This document shows, in pieces, positions 1,614 through 49,305 of a stretch of DNA of 49,305 nt. Position numbers and translations under genes: made by a program. A model generated the notes under the pieces. The model made no database searches. It worked only from the letters and a program-made list of their open reading frames with translations, and was not told the DNA's origin. The DNA is from Candidatus Endomicrobiellum calonymphae (GTDB lineage: Bacteria; Elusimicrobiota; Endomicrobiia; Endomicrobiales; Endomicrobiaceae): positions 65,785 to 115,089 of the forward strand of contig JAISYK010000012.1 of the NCBI GenBank assembly GCA_031269945.1, given 5' to 3'. Positions within the stretch are counted from its first letter, which is position 1. The number at the start of each line of letters is the position of its first letter.

Positions 1614-3695
1614 ATGAGGTTAAAAGTGGGATATTTTAGTAGAGAATTGGAAGTTGATAAAGAAAAATTTATTGTTGAATCTGGTAAACTTGCAAAGCAG
1701 GCAAATGGTTCTTGTACTGTAAGGGTTGGTGGTACGGTTGTTTTAGCTACGGCAGTTGCTTCAAAAGAACCTAATCCTGGTGCAGATTTTGTGCCTTTAA
1801 CGGTAGATTATAGAGAGAGAAATTACGCTGCCGGAAAAATTCCTGGTGGTTTTTTTAAGAGAGAGGCTAGGCCTAGAGACGGAGAAATATTAACAAGTAG
1901 ACTTATAGATAGAAGTATTAGACCTCTTTTCCCGAAGTATTGGAAAAATGATACGCAAATTTCTGTAATAGTTCTTTCACACGATGGGGAAAATGATTCC
2001 GATGTCGTAGCTATTTTTGGAGCTTCGGTTGCTCTGTATATCTCGGATTTGCCTTTCAAAGTACCAGTGGCGTCTATAAGAATAGGTAAAATAAAGGGAC
2101 AACTTATTATAAATCCGTTGATTACAGATCAAAAATATAGCGAGTTGGACTTGGTTGTTAGCGGAACAGAAGAAGTTTTAACAATGGTTGAAGCAAGTGC
2201 GAATGAACTTTCAGAAAAGGAAATGCTTGAGGCTTTAAGTTTTGCCAGGGGTACAGTAAAAAAAATGTGTTTATTTCAAAAAACGCTTTCTACAAAAGCG
2301 AAAATTGAGGTTTCATATCCTAATTATAACCTATTATTGAAAGCCGATATTGAAGCTGAGGCTGTTCCAAAAGCTGAAATAAGCGTTGCAATTAAAGAAA
2401 AATTTGAAAGAGAATTTTTTTGGAATTCGTTTAAAAAAGATTTATCGGTAAAACTTATGAAGAAGTACCCTGGTGAGTTAATATCGACAGTAAATGAAAT
2501 ATTAGAAGATATTTTTTATAAAAAGGCTAGAGAGCTTATTTTGTATAAAGGAGTTCGTTCTGATGGGCGAGGCTTCGAAGAAATAAGATTTATAATTTGT
2601 GAGACAGATGTACTTCCAAGGGTTCATGGTTCAAGTTTGTTCACAAGAGGACAGACTCAGGCTTTAGTGACAGTAACACTTGGAACTCCAACTGATATGC
2701 AAATTGTGGATGAACTTGCTGGGGAGTATAAAGAACGTTTTATATTCCATTATAATTTTCCTGGTTTCGCAACGGGCGAGCTTAAGGGCGAGAGAGCTGC
2801 GAGTAGAAGGGAGATTGGACATGGGAATCTGGCCAAAAGAGCTCTAAGGCCTATTTTGCCAAATGAAAATGACTTTGGGTATACTATAAGAGTAGTATCG
2901 GATATATTAGAATCGAACGGTTCATCATCGATGGCTTCTGTTTGCGGCGGTTCGCTTGCGTTATTTAACGCTGGTATACCTGTAAAGTCTAGTTGTGCTG
3001 GCGTTGCTATGGGGCTTATTAAAGAAGGTGAAAATTATGCTGTTTTAACAGACATTATGGGAATGGAAGATCATTTCGGGGATATGGATTTTAAAGTTGC
3101 GGGGACAAGGGACGGTATTACCGCACTACAAATGGACATAAAAATTCCCGGAATTACTACTGAGATTATGGCTCGTGCTCTTGAACAAGCAAAGCGTGCC
3201 AGATTGTTTATACTAGATAAAATGGATAATGCAATTTCAGTTCCTAAAAATAATATTTCAAATTATGCTCCACGGATGGTAATTTTGTCGATACCTCAAG
3301 ATAAAATCGGCGATCTTATAGGGCCAGGTGGTAAAAATATAAGAAAAATTCAAGAAGACAATAATGTTAAGGTAGATATTGAAGAAACTGGCAAAGTGGT
3401 TATTACTGGGTTAGAATCTGCTGGAGTTGATTCCGCGAAGGAATATGTTGAATCTTTGACCATTGAAGCTAAAGTTGGGAAGGTTTATAAAGGTAGAATT
3501 GTTAGAGTTATGCCATTTGGTGCTTTTGCTGAAATTTTACCTGGGAAAGAAGGACTAATACATATTTCCCAGTTGTCAGAACGTCACGTGAAGAAAGTTG
3601 AAGACGTTATAAAAGAGGGAGATGAAGTTAAAGTTAAAGTGATTGAAATTGATAGTCAGGGAAGAATAAATTTGAGTTTGAAGGCAGTAAATTAA
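1614..3695 (+). CDS. pnp: Polyribonucleotide nucleotidyltransferase (PNPase)
   Basis: This is the phosphorolytic 3'-to-5' exoribonuclease of RNA turnover. The 693 residues match the family length of about 700. Domain order is two RNase PH-like domains (about 1-225 and 315-545) around a helical linker, then KH (about 553-612, GxxG loop as IGPGGK) and S1 (about 620-690). The catalytic acidic residues appear as D500 and D508 in GTRDGITALQMDIK. The ribosome-binding site before the ATG is weak, so coupling to rpsO 71 bases upstream is plausible. Nothing looks broken. Confidence 0.97.
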   Translation: MRLKVGYFSRELEVDKEKFIVESGKLAKQANGSCTVRVGGTVVLATAVASKEPNPGADFVPLTVDYRERNYAAGKIPGGFFKREARPRDGEILTSRLIDRSIRPLFPKYWKNDTQISVIVLSHDGENDSDVVAIFGASVALYISDLPFKVPVASIRIGKIKGQLIINPLITDQKYSELDLVVSGTEEVLTMVEASANELSEKEMLEALSFARGTVKKMCLFQKTLSTKAKIEVSYPNYNLLLKADIEAEAVPKAEISVAIKEKFEREFFWNSFKKDLSVKLMKKYPGELISTVNEILEDIFYKKARELILYKGVRSDGRGFEEIRFIICETDVLPRVHGSSLFTRGQTQALVTVTLGTPTDMQIVDELAGEYKERFIFHYNFPGFATGELKGERAASRREIGHGNLAKRALRPILPNENDFGYTIRVVSDILESNGSSSMASVCGGSLALFNAGIPVKSSCAGVAMGLIKEGENYAVLTDIMGMEDHFGDMDFKVAGTRDGITALQMDIKIPGITTEIMARALEQAKRARLFILDKMDNAISVPKNNISNYAPRMVILSIPQDKIGDLIGPGGKNIRKIQEDNNVKVDIEETGKVVITGLESAGVDSAKEYVESLTIEAKVGKVYKGRIVRVMPFGAFAEILPGKEGLIHISQLSERHVKKVEDVIKEGDEVKVKVIEIDSQGRINLSLKAVN

Positions 3696-4536: not shown

Positions 4537-6732
4537 TTGAAAAATAAAAAAATTAAAAACAGAAAGCAAGATCAAGACGTTTCAAAAAAAAACAGAGAGA
4601 TAGTAGCTTTGTTTTTTGCGTTAGCATTTTTTTTTAGTGCTTGTGTTTTCATTTTTCCGACTAAATCTGGTATATTGGGGCGAATTTTTTCTAGTGCTAT
4701 GTTAAATATACTTGGAACGGCATCGTACCTTGTGTCTTTGTTGTTTTTGCGGTATTTTATAATGCACGTAGAACAATCTTCTGTTAAGTATAAAAAAAAA
4801 GATCATTTTATATGGTCTGTTGTTTTTATTGTTTCTGCTGCGGTATTGTTTGAAGCGATACATTTTGTGTTTATGATAAGGGTTTCCGGGGGATGGATTG
4901 GAGATAGGTCATATGCATTTTTTAAAGAACTTTTTGGCTCATGGTTTTGTTTAGGTGCAGTTGCGATTATGTTTTTTTTCTCTGCTGTAAGAATTTCGAA
5001 ACACTCATTGATTTCTTATATGTGTAATTTTCTGAGAAAACTAATAGCCAGCTTTGTAAAATTAAGAAAAAATAGGGTTCAAAATGTGGAACAAAAAAAT
5101 GAAACAAGATTTGTATTGAGACAAGAGTTTAGTTCTAAAATGCCTAGATCTGTATTTATAACACCAAATATCATAAGTAAGCATGAGAAAGAAGAGGATG
5201 AGAAATCGTGCAATTTCGTCCGAATGATTCCCAATCGTGAAAAAGCTAGTAAAGAAGTTTTAAATTATAGACTCCCTTCTATTGATTTTCTTAGCATTGA
5301 CTCTACTACAAATTTTGATGTGAATAAAAATGACTTTTTTAAAACAGCAAAACTTTTAAGAAAAACTCTTGCAGATTTTGGTATTAATGCAGAAGTTAAG
5401 GATATTATTCCAGGCCCAGTTGTCACACGCTATGACTTAGTTTTAGCTCCTGGAATAAGAATACAAGCTTTATCTAACATTATCGACAATATTTCTCTCG
5501 TTATGCGTTCTGCGTCAATAAGAATTATTCCTGTTCCTGAAAAAGCAGCTGTAGGGATAGAAGTACCCAATCTTTCAAGTGCCAGAGTTGGCTTAAGAGA
5601 AATTTTAGGAAGTAATGCTTTTAAAAATTCAAAATCTTTAGTTACTTTGGCTTTGGGCAAAACAACTGATGGGGTAGGTTATGTGGCCGATTTAGCTTCA
5701 ATGCCACATCTTTTAATTGCAGGTGCTACTGGCTCAGGTAAAAGTGTTGGGATTCACTCTATAATACTTTCTATTTTATATAAAGCACGTCCCGATGAAG
5801 TAAAATTTATGTTAATCGATCCTAAACGAGTTGAAATGCTTATTTATAAGGATCTCCCTCACATATATAATCCATGTACTTATGCGGTTAATGCAGATGT
5901 TATAACTAGTCCTAAAGAAGCTGCAAAAGCTCTAAAAAATCTTGTTGTGCTTATGGAAGAAAGGTATACAAAGTTTGCAAAAGATATGGTAAGAAATATT
6001 GAAGAGTATAACAGTAAGATGGTGAGTATTGGTGATAAAAAAGAATTTTATATCATTGTTATAATAGATGAGTTTGCGGATTTAATGCTTATGGCACAAA
6101 AAGAAGTAGAGGATTCAGTACAGCGTTTAGCTCAAATGGCGAGAGCTGTGGGCATACATTTAGTTCTTGCGACTCAAAGACCGTCAGTTAATGTTATAAC
6201 TGGCATTATTAAGGCCAATTTCCCAGCGAGATTATCATTTCAGACAACATCTAAAATAGATTCAAGAGTTATTTTAGATATGCTCGGGGCCGAGTGTTTA
6301 ATTGGTAAAGGGGATATGTTATTTTTGCCGCCTGGAGAAGCAAAACCTATTCGTCTACAAGGGGCTTATGTTTCGTTAAGAGAAGCTGAAAGAATTGTCT
6401 CTTTTATAAATGATCAAAAATTTCCAAGAATTTACAAACCTATAGTCATTAAGTTTAGAGATAAGAATAGTTTCGATGAGAATGAAAGAGGAGATAAAGG
6501 TGAGAAGGACTTAATTTCAGCCCTTAAACTTGTAAATGAGCGTGGACGTGTATCTCAGGACTTACTTAAAGCGAATTTTGGAAGTTCTGCAAGAGCTACA
6601 AATATATTGAGTATTCTTGAAATAAAAGGTTTTATAACAAAGCCAGATGGTACCAATAAATGGCAGATAAATTATGATAGAATAAGAAACTATTTTAAAA
6701 GTAAAGTAATAGATAAGACGGGGAAGGGTTAA
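4537..6732 (+). CDS. ftsK: DNA translocase FtsK/SpoIIIE
   Basis: FtsK is a septal ATP-driven DNA pump that clears chromosome ends from the division site and activates XerC/XerD at dif. The 731 residues include about four N-terminal membrane helices (23-42, 56-72, 91-113, 133-150), a short linker, then the motor. Walker A is GATGSGKS near residue 396 and Walker B is IIVIIDEFADL near 505. A winged-helix gamma domain occupies about 660-725. The start is TTG with AAGG about ten bases upstream. It is short like SpoIIIE, lacking the long E. coli linker. xerD lies 2.5 kb downstream. Confidence 0.95.
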   Translation: MKNKKIKNRKQDQDVSKKNREIVALFFALAFFFSACVFIFPTKSGILGRIFSSAMLNILGTASYLVSLLFLRYFIMHVEQSSVKYKKKDHFIWSVVFIVSAAVLFEAIHFVFMIRVSGGWIGDRSYAFFKELFGSWFCLGAVAIMFFFSAVRISKHSLISYMCNFLRKLIASFVKLRKNRVQNVEQKNETRFVLRQEFSSKMPRSVFITPNIISKHEKEEDEKSCNFVRMIPNREKASKEVLNYRLPSIDFLSIDSTTNFDVNKNDFFKTAKLLRKTLADFGINAEVKDIIPGPVVTRYDLVLAPGIRIQALSNIIDNISLVMRSASIRIIPVPEKAAVGIEVPNLSSARVGLREILGSNAFKNSKSLVTLALGKTTDGVGYVADLASMPHLLIAGATGSGKSVGIHSIILSILYKARPDEVKFMLIDPKRVEMLIYKDLPHIYNPCTYAVNADVITSPKEAAKALKNLVVLMEERYTKFAKDMVRNIEEYNSKMVSIGDKKEFYIIVIIDEFADLMLMAQKEVEDSVQRLAQMARAVGIHLVLATQRPSVNVITGIIKANFPARLSFQTTSKIDSRVILDMLGAECLIGKGDMLFLPPGEAKPIRLQGAYVSLREAERIVSFINDQKFPRIYKPIVIKFRDKNSFDENERGDKGEKDLISALKLVNERGRVSQDLLKANFGSSARATNILSILEIKGFITKPDGTNKWQINYDRIRNYFKSKVIDKTGKG

Positions 6733-7421
6733 ATGAATTATAAATGTAAAAGGGATTCGTTATTGTAAAATTGTGTATTTATTTGTTAAATCGATTGTAG
6801 TTGTTTTGTTAATTATTCTGCTTACTTTTTTTTAAATTACTTATGGCTTAGCTCAAAGGTGTATTGGGAATAAGATTGATGTATTTCTTGATAAAGTATG
6901 AGGGATTTGTAAAAGAATAAATGTTATTAGTACTGATTACGTTCAAAGTGTTTTTAAAATTTACAAGAGGAGAGCGAAAAATTTATGAAAAACTATTTTT
7001 TAAAAAAAATGTGGAATTTACATAAATCAAAAAACTCTTTAGGAGCGGCAAATATACTTTGATGGTAAGAATGTAGCCATTTATATTCCCAAAAATAGGC
7101 AAATTATAATTGATAGCTGTGGAGTTACATAGTGCTATTAATGAGAATTTTACTTCTGTAGATTTTTTTTAGCTTTATAGGTGTTTGTGTGGATTTAAGA
7201 AGAATTAAGAAACAAATGTGATAGATTTTATAGATGAAAATGAAGAATATGTTCTGATCAAAGTTAATATTTTATTTGATGAAAATTATAATATGAAGAT
7301 ATATATTTAAAAATTAAATATGTACCGTGAGGAAATTATTTTAAGATTTGATGAATTCGTTATGAAAGTTGTATTTAAAAACTATAAGAGTAACGATGTT
7401 GAAGTGATAAAGCTTAATTAA
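6733..7421 (+). pseudogene. lolA: Broken LolA-like outer-membrane lipoprotein carrier
   Basis: Reading from about 6737 gives a signal-peptide-like start (KIVYLFVKSIVVVLLIILL, then ITYGLAQ). Further along the same frame are DVFLDKV, then STDYVQSVFKIYK and YFDGKNVAIYIPKNRQIII. The last matches the LolA pattern in which a predicted strand reads DGK.v.iY.p...Qv. At least eight in-frame stops interrupt it. The C-terminal part continues in another frame (VNILFDENYNMKIYI, then EEIILRFDEF and VEVIKLN) and ends at TAA 7419-7421. The gene is therefore close to full length but dead. Its place between ftsK and pgsA fits an old gene order rather than an insertion. Confidence 0.6.
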
Positions 7422-16316: not shown

Positions 16317-16915
16317 TTTATTGTTGAGTACTTTACCCGGGTAATAATTGTAGCAAAAACCCATCCACAATATTATATAATAAATATCTCAGTGGCGAGA
16401 AAAAGTCCCTTGGTATAACATTAAAATTTCTTTGTAGTATTTGATTATATGTGTTTTGTATGGGTGTATTTTATTAGTCTATGTGAGAGAATAGAGAGCT
16501 AAAAACACCGTTTTTGGTGCGTGCCAATTGTCATAATCACTTATAATAACTCTAATGAATATGTGTTGACTATAAAAACTTAAATAAAATATGGGAAGAA
16601 TAAGAATGAATACGAGGAGTATATAGAAAATGCCTTGGTGTATTGGGCCTTTGTGTTGAAGAGCAACTATCGCATTAAAATTAAGGATAAAAAATTTATA
16701 TGTGTTTTTATTTCTAGATCATTTCTTATTTAAACTATTTAGATTATATAATTACAATGTGGTTTATAAGTAAAAAAAATGACAGAAAAATAAAGTACTG
16801 GTGTTTCTTTCACTTGCCAAATAGAAAAAATATAGCTATTTTAGATTTTGTGAATCTTCTGCATGTTAGATGAACTTAGCATCATAAGTGATAAGCAGTC
16901 TCTATTAGAATTTTC

Positions 16916-17179
16916 TTATAAATATTCAATGATTTTAATTAATCTTTCTCTGTTGTCTTCTAATATTTCTATTTTTCGCTGTCTTTCCTTTTTAGCTATA
17001 AAAATATTAGTAATTTTGTCATATTTCCCTTTCTTAATATCTTCTACAAATTTAAATCCTAACGTTTTTGTTCTGTTAAATGCTGTAAATACTAATAATT
17101 TTAAATGGAAGTTAAGGACTATTACAATGATTAATGTTGAGAATGAGAAAACAGTATAAATATTTTGTTTCCTAGTATC
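16916..17179 (-). pseudogene. Minus-strand coding remnant, unknown
   Basis: Reading the minus strand from 17179 gives 87 codons without a stop, but with no ATG, GTG or TTG at the front. The protein has a hydrophobic N-terminal segment (FSTLIIVIVLNFHLKLLVF) followed by a lysine- and glutamate-rich part (DIKKGKYDK, then KERQRKIEILEDNRERLIK) that could be a helix or coiled coil. Its composition resembles real genes here better than the plus-strand open stretch 16863-17159 that overlaps it. I do not recognise the family. Confidence 0.3.
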
Positions 17180-17391
17180 TTAGAATTTCTTTTGTTTTTT
17201 AGATTAAAAACATATAAAACAATGTACAATAATTTGTTAATGGTTGTGAAAGTAGTAAAACATTTTTATTAGTTGTTTGTTGTTGTAAAAATTCTGTCTC
17301 TTGTTTCATTGCTTTATTATAGATTTCACTATTTATCTCCGTATTCCATTCACTTGTATTATTGTGTATAATGAACAGTCACCCCCGAGCC

Positions 17392-17639
17392 TTACCTATT
17401 TAAGATGAAGTAAAGCGTAGGGTTGGAATTTTTAAAAGTTCTGTTAAGACTAGAAGGTGTAACGATTACTTTTGTGGTGAGTTTAGTCTCTTCTGCCCCT
17501 ATGAAATCTCTAGCTTTTTGTCTTGTTTTTTTTTGAAAGGATCTCTATTAATTGGAAGACGGCTTCCAAATTCCCAAGTAATGAATGGAGTGGTAAAATG
17601 TTATGTTCCTCTATGAATATGCGTAAAAAGTTGTAGCAT
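17392..17639 (-). pseudogene. Minus-strand frameshifted remnant, unknown
   Basis: Beginning at an ATG (17639) the protein reads MLQLFTHIHRG. It then continues best in a second frame as EEHNILPLHSLLGNLEAVFQ, and finally in a third frame as ARDFIGAEETKLTTKVIVTP, then SSLNRTFKNSNPTLYFILNR before a stop at 17392-17394. The near-continuous protein-like text across three frames suggests a gene killed by small indels. I could not identify the family. Confidence 0.3.
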
Positions 17640-17925
17640 GAAAAATGTAAAGTAAATGATTTTAATGAGTTTGGTTTGTATGTAATTTATTTTATAAGCC
17701 GTGTGCGTTGTTTTGTTTGCATTTGAAAGAGGTGTGGGAGATACGGAATTTAATGTTTCAATATTTCAATGATTAAAGCAAAAGAACTTTTTTTTTGGGG
17801 GGGGGAATTTACGGAATCTATTCTGAAAAGAAGTGCTGCTTATGCTCTCTTGGTTAGTGCTTGGTAGGTTTGTAGGTGGATGGTTTATATTTTTTATGCG
17901 TTATACGTTTTGGTTTGGATATTGT

Positions 17926-18130
17926 TTATTTGGATAGAAAAACTTGAGTTGTGAAAATTATAAAATCATTAAAATCTTTCAGAGTAACATTTTCAGTAAA
18001 AAACGCGGTTTCAGTTCTTAAAATTATCTCAATTGTAAATAACATGAGGGTGTCGTTGCCTGCAGAAAATTAAACAATTTCTAAATGGGTTGATTTTTCG
18101 TTAGTTTGAATTCTTAAAACGACATCGCCA
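17926..18130 (-). pseudogene. Minus-strand protein-like remnant, unknown
   Basis: The minus strand reads GDVVLRIQTNEKSTHLEIV, one stop, then a segment containing AGNDTLMLFTIEIILRTETA and NVTLKDFNDFIIF, ending at a stop at 17926-17928. A plus-strand reading is also fairly open, so even the strand is uncertain. It may be part of the same dead gene as the remnant at 17392-17639 or a separate one. No family recognised. Confidence 0.2.
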
Positions 18131-18214
18131 CAGAGACGTTGTTTTTTTTTCTCTTCTATTAACGTACAAATGTTTATGATATATAAAAAAAAGGATGGAG
18201 GTAATGCTAACATA

Positions 18215-44860: not shown

Positions 44861-45696
44861 TGTTAAATTTATGTATTGTAGGGTTAGGGCAGATGGGAGG
44901 GTCTTTAAGTTTAGCGTTAAAAAAGAGTAGTGCCCCTTATCGCATAACTGGTATAGTAAAAAAAGATTTTGTGAATACAGCTCTCAGACTTAAAATAGTA
45001 GATGAAGTTTATCCAACTTTAGAGTCTGCTAGAGGTGCTGATATTGTTGTAATATGTACTCCAGTTGATACAATATTGCCTTTATATAGAAGGCTATGTA
45101 ACATAGTTAATAAGAGTGCTATAGTTACCGATGTTGGGAGTGTGAAATATTTAATTGAAAGGAGGATCAAAGGTTTTTCTGTAAAGAGGAATGCCATACC
45201 TTTCATAGGAGTTCATCCTATGGTAGGTAGAGAAAAAAGCGGAATATTTTCAGCTGATGCAAGCATGTTTAGGAATGCAAATGTTATTATGGTAGGCTCA
45301 TCAAAAAAGTTGACAAAGAAAGAAATGCTTGTAGCTCAAATGTGGAAATACGCTGGAGCAAAAGTGATTAAAATGCCCGCTCGCAAGCATGACGAGCTTG
45401 TTGCCTTTACGAGTCACTTACCACATGTTATAGCTTTTTTACTAAAAAAAATATACAAAAGGACGAAGAGAAAAAATTCGAGAGTTGATGTGTTGGTAGC
45501 TGATTCTTTTAAAAGTGCAACAAGAGTGGCAGTTTCAAATCCAGATGTGTGGGTACCGATTTTTGAATTAAATAGCAAGAATGTTGAAAAGTATTTAATT
45601 GAATTTATAAAAGAACTTAGCGATTTTAAACAAATCTTAAAGAATAAGCAAAAAATTAAAAAAGAAATATTAAACATACAAAAAAAATGGAAATAA
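44860..45696 (+). CDS. tyrA: Prephenate dehydrogenase
   Basis: TyrA oxidatively decarboxylates prephenate to 4-hydroxyphenylpyruvate for tyrosine. The 278 residues show the NAD-binding VGLGQMGGSLSLAL, CTPVDTI, the catalytic region GVHPMVGREKSG and FTSHLPHVIAFLL. There is no ACT domain. It overlaps aroF (TAATG) upstream and aroA downstream. Confidence 0.95.
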   Translation: MLNLCIVGLGQMGGSLSLALKKSSAPYRITGIVKKDFVNTALRLKIVDEVYPTLESARGADIVVICTPVDTILPLYRRLCNIVNKSAIVTDVGSVKYLIERRIKGFSVKRNAIPFIGVHPMVGREKSGIFSADASMFRNANVIMVGSSKKLTKKEMLVAQMWKYAGAKVIKMPARKHDELVAFTSHLPHVIAFLLKKIYKRTKRKNSRVDVLVADSFKSATRVAVSNPDVWVPIFELNSKNVEKYLIEFIKELSDFKQILKNKQKIKKEILNIQKKWK

Positions 45697-46982
45697 AACT
45701 TAGGCAAGTTAATTCAGTTTCAGGTATAATTGAGGTTCCTGGAGATAAGTCTATAACGCACAGAAGTATTATGTTTTCCTCTCTTAGTGAAGGCAGTTCT
45801 GTTATCAGAAACTATTTGTTATCGAATGATTGTGATAGAACAATTACAGCGTTTCGCAAGGTGGGTGCAAGAATTAGGAGTGATAAGAATAATCTTTATA
45901 TAAAGGGTGTTGGGTTAAAGCTTATTAATCCGACTGGCGAAAATTATAATATTTATGCAGGGAATTCTGGTACAACAGCAAGACTTTTTTCAGGGATTTT
46001 TTCTGGGCAAAATTTTGAAACGATTATTACAGGTGACTATAGTCTTTCGATAAGACCTATGCAAAGAGTTATAGATCCTTTGCTAGAAATGGGTGCTGAT
46101 ATTAAGTCAAATGGAGGACTGCTCCCTTTAGTAATAAACGGTAGAGAGTCGCTAAAAGCAATAAATTACAAAAGTGAAAAATCTACAGCACAGGTAAAGT
46201 CTGCGGTTTTGTTGGCCGGTTTATATGCCGATGGTCCTACAACGTACAGCGAACCCGTGAAATCTAGAGATCATAGTGAAAGAATGTTGAAAATTTTTGG
46301 CGTTAACATTGATATTAAAGGTAATTCTGTTACGATTTATCCTACGGATAAACTTATAGCACAAGATTTAACAATACCGGGAGATATTTCTTCAGCAGCT
46401 TTTTTTATCGCAGCAGCTCTAATCGTGCCTAATTCTAATTTAACTATAAAAAACGTAGGAATAAACCCAACAAGAAATGCTTTAATTGAAGTGTTAAAAC
46501 AAATGGGAGCTAATATCACTTTAATCAATACTAGAGAAGTTTCACATGAACCGGTGTGCGATATAATTATAAAATATTCAAGGCTTAAAGCTGTAAATAT
46601 AGATGCTTCAATTATTCCACGAATGATTGACGAGATTCCTATTTTTACTCTTATTTCAACTCAAGCAGAAGGTGTTACAAAGATTTCTGGAGCTGAAGAG
46701 CTTAAAATAAAAGAGACTGATAGAATAGGAGTTGTAGTTAGTCAGTTTAAAAAGCTAGGCGTACAAATTGAAGCACTTGAAGATGGATTTCTAATAGACG
46801 GACGTAATGAATTTGCCCTGACGGGTGGTGCTATTGTTGATAGTTTCAAAGATCATAGAATGGCGATGACTTTGGCTGTGGCTTCATTAATTGCAAAAGG
46901 CGAAACTGTAATTAAAAATTCAGATTGTGTTAATATATCTTTTCCTGGTTTTTATAGGATGTTAAATAGTATATGCGATTAA
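45687..46982 (+). CDS. aroA: 3-phosphoshikimate 1-carboxyvinyltransferase (EPSP synthase)
   Basis: AroA makes EPSP from shikimate-3-phosphate and phosphoenolpyruvate. The 431 residues include PGDKSITHRSIMFS, GNSGTTARLFSG, RDHSERML, IDEIPIFTLIS and FKDHRMAMTLAVA, the complete set of active-site segments. It overlaps the ends of both neighbours (tyrA, plsC), marking a continuous transcript that runs from amino-acid to lipid genes. Confidence 0.97.
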   Translation: MEIKLRQVNSVSGIIEVPGDKSITHRSIMFSSLSEGSSVIRNYLLSNDCDRTITAFRKVGARIRSDKNNLYIKGVGLKLINPTGENYNIYAGNSGTTARLFSGIFSGQNFETIITGDYSLSIRPMQRVIDPLLEMGADIKSNGGLLPLVINGRESLKAINYKSEKSTAQVKSAVLLAGLYADGPTTYSEPVKSRDHSERMLKIFGVNIDIKGNSVTIYPTDKLIAQDLTIPGDISSAAFFIAAALIVPNSNLTIKNVGINPTRNALIEVLKQMGANITLINTREVSHEPVCDIIIKYSRLKAVNIDASIIPRMIDEIPIFTLISTQAEGVTKISGAEELKIKETDRIGVVVSQFKKLGVQIEALEDGFLIDGRNEFALTGGAIVDSFKDHRMAMTLAVASLIAKGETVIKNSDCVNISFPGFYRMLNSICD

Positions 46983-47566
46983 AAGAAAAATATTCAATTT
47001 TATTTTTACTGGGTAGGCAAATATTTAGATTGGTATTTGGTTTATTCTATAGATGGCGTGTTGAAGGATTGGAAAATGTGCCATACCTAGGGGGAGCGAT
47101 AATCGTTTCTAATCATATAAGTCTTTTTGATCCTCCATTAATAGGCTCTGCTATAAGACGTCCTCTCTATTTTATGGCTAAAAAGGAGTTATTTGATATT
47201 CCTGTTTTAAAGTGGATGATTAAGCAAACGCATGCTTTCCCTATTAAAAGAGATGGTCAAGATATGGCAGCGATGAGAAAGGCGTTTTTTCTTTTAAGAG
47301 AGGGGCATTTGCTTTTGATATTTCCAGAAGGAGCTCGTTTAAAAGGTGGCGATGGAATAGGGAAAGCGAGAGCTGGTGCTGGGATGCTAGCTTGCAGTGC
47401 TCAGTTGCCGTTAATTCCAGTAAAATTAAAAAACACAAATGCAATGTTAAAATTTAGGCGGATAGAGATAAAATTCGGCAAACCAGTATATCCTCCAAAA
47501 AAGTTTACAAAGGATGATTATATCAATTTGTCACAGAAAGTTTTGAATGTAATAGCTGCAATGTAA
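46973..47566 (+). CDS. plsC: 1-acyl-glycerol-3-phosphate acyltransferase
   Basis: PlsC adds the second acyl chain to lysophosphatidate. The 197 residues have the HX4D motif NHISLFD (H48, D53), KKELF in block II and FPEGAR (117-122). One N-terminal hydrophobic helix is present. It overlaps aroA by ten bases. In many genomes cytidylate kinase (cmk) lies between aroA and plsC; it is absent here. Confidence 0.93.
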   Translation: MRLKEKYSILFLLGRQIFRLVFGLFYRWRVEGLENVPYLGGAIIVSNHISLFDPPLIGSAIRRPLYFMAKKELFDIPVLKWMIKQTHAFPIKRDGQDMAAMRKAFFLLREGHLLLIFPEGARLKGGDGIGKARAGAGMLACSAQLPLIPVKLKNTNAMLKFRRIEIKFGKPVYPPKKFTKDDYINLSQKVLNVIAAM

Positions 47567-47622: not shown

Positions 47623-48492
47623 ATGAATGGTTCAAGACAGAGATTAAAAATTAGAATAGCGAATAGTTCAGGCTTTTGTTTTGGTGTGAAGAGAGCCGTA
47701 AATTTAGCAGAGGAAGCTGTTGAGAAAGGGCGAAAGGTATACGCTTTGGGCCCTATTATACATAATCCGCAAGAGGTTGAAAGACTTAAAAAAAAAAGAA
47801 TAAAAATTTTAGCAGATATTAACAAAATTGAGAGTGGTTTTATAGTTTTGCGTACTCATGGCATACCCCTTAATATTCACAAAAAACTTATAAAAAATAA
47901 GAATATTAGCATTATAGATGCCACCTGCCCTTTCGTGAAAAGAGCACAAATAATAATTAAACAGCTAAGTACAGGTATAAATTTCAAAAATAAAATAGTG
48001 ATAATAGTTGGTGAAAAGATTCATCCTGAAGTTGTTGCTCTTATGTCATATGGTAAGAGTGGTAAATGTGTTGTTGTTGAAAATGAAATGGAAGCACGGA
48101 ATTTTAAAGGTCACGGAGATTTAAATATTGTAAGTCAAACTACGCAAGCCCCTGAAAATTTTGAAAATATTGTAGAAATTTTAAAAAAACAACACAAAGT
48201 AAAAGTTCATAATACAATATGCAAAGCGACTTTCGATAGGCAAAGGTCTGCGGAGAAACTTGCAAAAAGTGTTGATTTAATGATAGTTATAGGCGGGAAA
48301 AATTCAGGTAATACTACAAGACTTGCTCAAATTTGTTCTACTAATACAAATACTTATCATATTGAGACGGTCAATGGTATAAAAGAAAAGTGGTTAAAAA
48401 ATATTGGCAGTGTCGGGTTAACTGCAGGAGCATCTACTCCTGATTGGATAATAAAAGAGGTTGAAAAAAAAATAAAAGAAATTAGTGTGTGA
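47623..48492 (+). CDS. ispH: 4-hydroxy-3-methylbut-2-enyl diphosphate reductase (IspH/LytB)
   Basis: IspH is the last enzyme of the MEP isoprenoid pathway, with an iron-sulfur cluster held by three cysteines. They are C19 (SGFCFGVKRAV), C102 (DATCPFVKRAQ) and C199 (NTICKATFDRQ); the substrate-binding histidines in HNPQEVERL, RTHGIP and HPEVVAL are also present. The 289 residues are full length. It is directly followed by the decayed rpsA, recalling the ispH-rpsA linkage or fusion seen in other bacteria. Confidence 0.96.
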   Translation: MNGSRQRLKIRIANSSGFCFGVKRAVNLAEEAVEKGRKVYALGPIIHNPQEVERLKKKRIKILADINKIESGFIVLRTHGIPLNIHKKLIKNKNISIIDATCPFVKRAQIIIKQLSTGINFKNKIVIIVGEKIHPEVVALMSYGKSGKCVVVENEMEARNFKGHGDLNIVSQTTQAPENFENIVEILKKQHKVKVHNTICKATFDRQRSAEKLAKSVDLMIVIGGKNSGNTTRLAQICSTNTNTYHIETVNGIKEKWLKNIGSVGLTAGASTPDWIIKEVEKKIKEISV

Positions 48493-49305
48493 AATGCTAC
48501 CCTTAATTTGCTTGCGATATTCGTTATTTAAGACATGCTTCTTTTATGTTTATAGTGGGCAACAAAAACTTAAATAACAACGCATTGGTAGACTTTTAGG
48601 ATAGTGAAAATCTGAGTAATTGTTTTATGGTAGATTTAGGAATTGAATAGTAAGAAATAGTTCTTAAAAAGAAGTTTGGAGAAGTCGGAATGTTGTAGTA
48701 TAGATTAAAGATTGGTGCGAAGGGCAAAGGAAGAATTTTTGGTACTAATAATGATCCGGTCTATTGTTTTTTACCTTGAAATTCTAGAAAAGTCTAAGTG
48801 AGGTGCAGTTTATAAAGTTTTCAAGAAGTGAGATATGTTTATGGCAAAATAATAGAAAATGTAAAACACGGATTTATATCTGATATTTAATGTAAAGTCA
48901 TTTTTACACATTTCTCAGTTTGCTGTGGATTTTGTAAAAAAGTTGAAGAGTTTGTTGATGGTCCGTGTAAGTTTGTAATAACAGAGTTTAATGAGAAAAA
49001 CATATAGTTGTTTCTCTTGTAAAAAAAAATTATTGAGGCAGATAAAGAGTATTACATGGGCATAATCTGGTTTAGAACATATTGATGAAGGGCAAATAAT
49101 CGATGGGATAGTGTTTAAGGGTGCTAGTTTTTGGTGTTTTGTTGATCTTAGAAAAATTGGTGAGTTTTTTTTTGCATATAGCTTGATATAAAAAATTTAA
49201 TAAGCGGTAATGTGTAGATGTTAATGTTACCTAGTTGCATGTGATGTGTGTGTATAGGGGCTTTGTTAAAAGTATTGGTGTTGTAGGGGGTGCAGAAAGA
49301 GGATG
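48493..49305 (+). pseudogene. rpsA: Broken ribosomal protein S1 gene, continuing off the window
   Basis: S1-domain text survives in pieces. One frame reads VYGKIIENVKHGFISDI, then VEEFVDGPCKFVITEFNEKN and KKIIEADKEYY (about 48830-49060). After a frame change it reads LEHIDEGQIIDGIVFKGASF followed by WCFVDLRKIGEFFF (about 49070-49180). These match, in order, the S1 pattern: VkGkv.e.vkGGl.vDi, then vG..l.fkviefn.k, a linker helix, then L..i.eGqiv.GiVk...dfGaFVDL. Many in-frame stops and at least one frameshift make it dead. An earlier fragment (FMVDLGIE, near 48625) fits another S1 repeat. The right end is cut by the window. Confidence 0.7.

Follow-up and report, generated by a model that had tools for sequence, protein, structure and literature searches.

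Can an outer-membrane-bearing bacterium make its proteins without ribosomal protein bS1? In Gram-negative model bacteria, this protein is regarded as essential for initiating translation. The question is raised by the DNA behind ispH in a genome (G000) of Candidatus Endomicrobiellum, a genus of Elusimicrobiota whose members are endosymbionts of termite-gut flagellates. The window analyzed here is the whole stretch of 49,305 bases that forms the end of contig C12 (G000:C12:65785-115089). The initial annotation of this stretch described the S1 gene (rpsA) as dead directly behind ispH.

The gene is indeed dead. A remnant of rpsA was identified on the forward strand at 48552..49149 by frame-tolerant alignment with a shuffle control and by tblastn, and it corresponds to S1 residues 1-224 (domains 1 and 2 and the start of domain 3). 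Intact S1 proteins from G015 and G001, the nearest relatives that still carry rpsA, served as alignment references. The remnant is colinear with these proteins and identical to them at 99 of 186 residues (53%). The alignment score is 340, whereas 12 dinucleotide-shuffled sequences scored 26-38 and a single simply shuffled one scored 43, and tblastn E-values against intact S1 range from 1e-22 to 3e-23. The damage consists of 8 in-frame stops, 5 frameshifts and a deletion of 87 bases (29 codons), which leave no uninterrupted frame spanning four or more S1 domains. Translation from 48493 onward encounters stops throughout all three forward frames. The annotated picture of ordered fragments separated by stops and a frameshift is therefore accurate as to order and stops, but there are about five frameshifts rather than one, plus the deletion. 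The last 156 bases of the window (49150..49305, forward strand) are where the continuation of domain 3 is expected, and no S1 similarity was detected there by the frame-tolerant alignment. Contig C12 ends at 115089, which is window position 49305, thus the 3' half of rpsA is out of view; we sought it at the other contig ends of G000 and found none.

The genes upstream are intact and arranged as in relatives. On the forward strand these are aroA (45687..46982), a plsC-like acyltransferase gene (46973..47566) and ispH (47623..48492, encoding 289 aa), the conserved upstream neighbor of rpsA in the genus. Descent from bS1 is indicated by similarity that is colinear from domain 1 onward (340 versus at most 43 in shuffles) and by the conserved position behind ispH, given the order plsC-ispH-rpsA in intact relatives. 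The stretch is an rpsA pseudogene that has stayed at the ancestral location behind aroA-plsC-ispH; it derives from a gene for six-domain bS1 and cannot encode S1.

In intact relatives, a gene for a putative glycosyl hydrolase (DUF4015) is positioned tail-to-tail with rpsA. Only a 42-residue fragment of this gene is left in G000, at the end of contig C7 (L277) and in an orientation unfit for a simple join; the gene is broken in G057 too. A second decayed gene occurs elsewhere in the window (6824-7418, forward strand), behind ftsK (4537-6732). This is the remnant of a LolA-type outer-membrane lipoprotein carrier gene (PF03548) with 4-6 stops, and the gene is intact in G001 and G015. Also present, between two transcription directions, is a 1.8 kb region without a conserved gene (16371-18169), for which no match was found among the neighboring genes of relatives.

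It is extremely improbable that rpsA works here and owes its stops to errors of sequencing or assembly close to the contig end. The final 813 bases of this draft contig do contain the feature, but such errors are ruled out because the remnant has diverged to 53% protein identity (G015 and G001, whose S1 is intact, share about 80%), because the stops and frameshifts are spread across 600 bases while ispH just upstream is clean, and because broken copies occur at the same site in independent assemblies, one a complete genome.

We surveyed 42 genomes of the genus with S1 from G015 (Ca. Endomicrobiellum mastotermitis Md513_bin31) as the query; other named relatives are G041 (Ca. E. agilis TA26), G019 (Po218_bin4) and G012 (Kf353_bin3). 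Intact rpsA, encoding about 550-590 aa, was identified in about 20 of the 42 genomes (two of these end at contig ends), and it is located directly behind ispH wherever the neighborhood was read. The proteins of G015 and G001 have six PF00575 domains and match 30S ribosomal protein S1 models. Long S1 open reading frames are retained in the sampled genomes of this order and class that lie outside the genus.

Within the genus, every stage of decay is found at this one locus, from lightly broken to cleanly deleted. In G019, residues 1-561 are present in pieces at 61% identity, with 7 frameshifts and 1 stop. The G057 locus has 3 frameshifts, 1 stop and a deletion of 179 residues; 13 stops and 6 frameshifts were counted in G012. 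In G045 and G011, nothing beyond a trace of the start of rpsA is left. No trace above shuffles was found at the locus in the draft genomes G007, G016, G047 and G002, and G008 (score 49 versus 35) is likewise read as having none. In G053 the locus is closed, and ispH is followed by the next gene after only 47 bases. The rpsA of G054 has 1 stop and 1 frameshift and is split between contigs; it is probably broken, and we left it out of the loss count. Both ispH and rpsA are absent from G020 (95% complete), and loss or absence may extend to the entire aroA-plsC-ispH-rpsA region. This genome is weaker evidence of loss because ispH is absent too.

One of the genomes with a broken copy is complete. 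G057 is the four-replicon genome of Ca. Endomicrobium trichonymphae, with a chromosome of 1,114,532 bases and plasmid contigs of 5518, 5752 and 5038 bases. Along its full length, the contig of 5752 bases matches plasmid pRSTT2 of Ca. Endomicrobium trichonymphae Rs-D17 (NZ_AP017461.1) at 100% identity. The only matches to PF00575 in G057 are polynucleotide phosphorylase (PNPase), a 438-aa open reading frame of NusA size and the rpsA debris. The absence of bS1 thus extends across a complete chromosome and three plasmids and is not confined to drafts. Given that this genome is complete and encodes no other S1, the loss of bS1 in the genus is not due to incomplete assemblies.

The assembly of G000 itself comprises 808 kb in 13 contigs and is 83% complete. 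A Pfam search for S1 domains in this genome identified intact ones only in PNPase (3468..3683 of the window, forward strand, within the gene at 1614-3695) and in NusA (contig C4). When the whole of G000 was searched with an intact S1 protein, the pseudogene was the best-ranked match (2.9e-23) and PNPase came next. The premise of the initial annotation that this could be the only copy is borne out within the assembly: no second rpsA or rpsA-like S1 protein was found in these contigs, which cover 83% of the genome and one of which ends inside the gene. The old copy could be dead while another working rpsA, whether native or gained by horizontal transfer, resides in the unassembled 17%. This would be compatible with the completeness value, with the common acquisition of genes by horizontal transfer in the genus (PMC11257099) and with the two rpsA loci of G009. 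However, G009 is the only congener with a second rpsA, and its ispH is also doubled, as expected for merged strains (this metagenome-assembled genome, with two ispH and two rpsA loci, probably combines two strains or species). There is no second copy in the complete genome G057, and the close relative G045 is also without rpsA. Because the searches of G000 and the complete G057 genome yielded none, a hidden second copy in the missing 17% of G000 is unlikely.

A maximum-likelihood tree was constructed from PNPase, IspH and PlsC (37 taxa, 1168 columns). Genomes without rpsA are located beside intact ones at several well supported places in this tree. G057 is sister to intact G049 (support 100/99) and G002 is sister to intact G056 (99/96), G011 and G016 are placed with intact G043 (100/100), and G000 and G045 group with intact G001 and G015 (100/100). 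Parsimony gives 7 changes, or 6 without G020. A single ancestral loss, with the 12 certain losses constrained to one clade, was rejected (p-AU 1.5e-43); G000 and G045 may share one loss (p-AU 0.39). Thus, rpsA was lost at least six times independently within the genus. We infer that repeated loss is far likelier than repeated regain, because all intact copies with a neighborhood that was read occupy the same locus. As only debris of rpsA is left here, and at least six branches of the genus lost the gene independently, these bacteria appear to make protein without S1.

The other components of initiation that we considered are largely retained. The 16S rRNA tail that carries the anti-Shine-Dalgarno (anti-SD) sequence is intact in G057 (GGATCACCTCCTTT); neither 16S rRNA nor a match to this tail was found in the G000 assembly, and the anti-SD was seen in G057 instead. 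Ribosomal protein bS21 is encoded in 39 of the 42 genomes, including G000 and all other genomes with certain losses except G002, which is 78% complete. The mutual exclusion of bS21 and S1 that has been claimed for Mollicutes does not apply, as bS21 occurs here both with and without S1. The S1 docking platform, uS2, is kept in G000 and in most other genomes. Relaxation of uS2 was rejected: the protein is intact in G000 and in the other aligned rpsA-less genomes, where its changes are scattered, mostly conservative and without a shared signature.

SD-like motifs of at least 4 bases precede about 30-60% of starts in every sampled genome, compared to about 3-30% of background windows, and for roughly half of all starts the SD is weak or missing. 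Start codons were placed on the basis of conservation, which leaves some noise. Motif strength is similar in genomes with and without rpsA. We compared SD strength in three ways, using homolog-anchored starts, longest-ORF starts and ortholog pairs, and no robust compensation after rpsA loss was found in the three comparisons. Among ortholog pairs, G000 shows a weak upward trend relative to G001 and G015 (p about 0.12). In G045 the motifs are stronger (p 0.01-0.04), but the background shifts in parallel. No increase was found in G057 relative to G049, the best-matched pair (126 ortholog pairs). Overlapping genes were rejected as an adaptation to S1 loss. In the syntenic block, G001 has 7 overlapping pairs versus 7 in G000, and G015 has 6 versus 8; the suggestion that the many overlapping genes fit the loss of S1 is unsupported because relatives that keep rpsA intact have overlaps at about the same frequency. 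The related proposal that initiation must rely on SD signals, leaderless starts or coupling is likely with respect to SD reliance, and is not supported as a rewiring, given that no robust change in SD strength was identified. The reliance on SD pairing is likely an inherited state rather than a demonstrated compensation, and S1 had probably been dispensable before it was lost, with no compensation involved.

Alternatively, S1 may have been replaced by the S1 domain of PNPase or NusA, by another OB-fold protein or by a host protein, or initiation may have been rewired towards leaderless starts or stronger SD motifs. The S1 domains of PNPase and NusA are intact, which would suit such a replacement, but both proteins are also present where rpsA is intact. 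The trend to stronger SD in G000 and G045 relative to G001 and G015 is in the direction expected of rewiring, but it is small, follows the background shift, so that a change in composition can account for it, and is absent from the comparison of G057 with G049, and overlap counts are about unchanged. We regard replacement or rewiring as unlikely.

We favor relaxed selection over replacement as the explanation. In genomes that are reduced and protected by a host, as these are, bS1 may have become dispensable because initiation would already have run on SD pairing, with the anti-SD tail and bS21 retained, together with short intercistronic spacing. Purifying selection on rpsA would then have relaxed, and drift would have removed this long gene repeatedly. 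A special replacement factor need not be assumed. We consider it likely that bS1 has been repeatedly and completely dispensable in an outer-membrane-bearing genus, given at least six losses, one of them in a complete genome, and start signals without detectable rewiring. The explanation as a whole, in which an rpsA pseudogene at the ancestral site is one of at least six losses in the genus of a dispensable bS1 with no special replacement factor, is very probably correct.

The closest precedent is the loss of rpsA in Mollicutes, a genome-reducing lineage in which bS1 was lost independently seven times while most of the ribosome was kept, and in which bS21 was reported to be necessary when S1 is absent (PMC4014445, PLoS Genet 2014). 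As in Mollicutes, there were several independent losses in a reducing lineage (at least six here, with a single origin rejected), and bS21 is kept where bS1 is lost (here in all certain losses except G002). Unlike Mollicutes, the bacteria studied here are Elusimicrobiota that live as endosymbionts of protists, rpsA pseudogenes at intermediate stages are still found in their original place, and sister species with and without S1 coexist. In lineages in which the role of S1 is altered, initiation is likewise possible without a full working S1. Those lineages are whole phyla or classes, whereas here a six-domain S1 decays in parallel among sister species.

A genome survey of Endomicrobiellum described progressive gene loss in several subgroups (PMC11257099, mBio 2024). 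The genus and the process of gene loss are the same as those considered here, where the lost gene encodes a core ribosomal protein. The survey reports metabolic losses and, for those informational functions that it names, no notable difference; ribosomal proteins, rpsA, translation and pseudogenes go unmentioned in its main text (PMC11257099). We found no earlier report of rpsA loss in the genus in the accessible literature, although the gene may previously have been listed among the pseudogenes of E. trichonymphae. The losses described here also suggest that surveys of a well-studied symbiont group have overlooked that a core ribosomal protein was lost.

Related species in which S1 is intact, freshly broken or gone offer a comparison of which mRNAs need S1, and of whether its absence can be met by bS21, the anti-SD and short intercistronic gaps alone. 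If the explanation given here is true, Endomicrobiellum would be a natural experiment on the purpose of S1.
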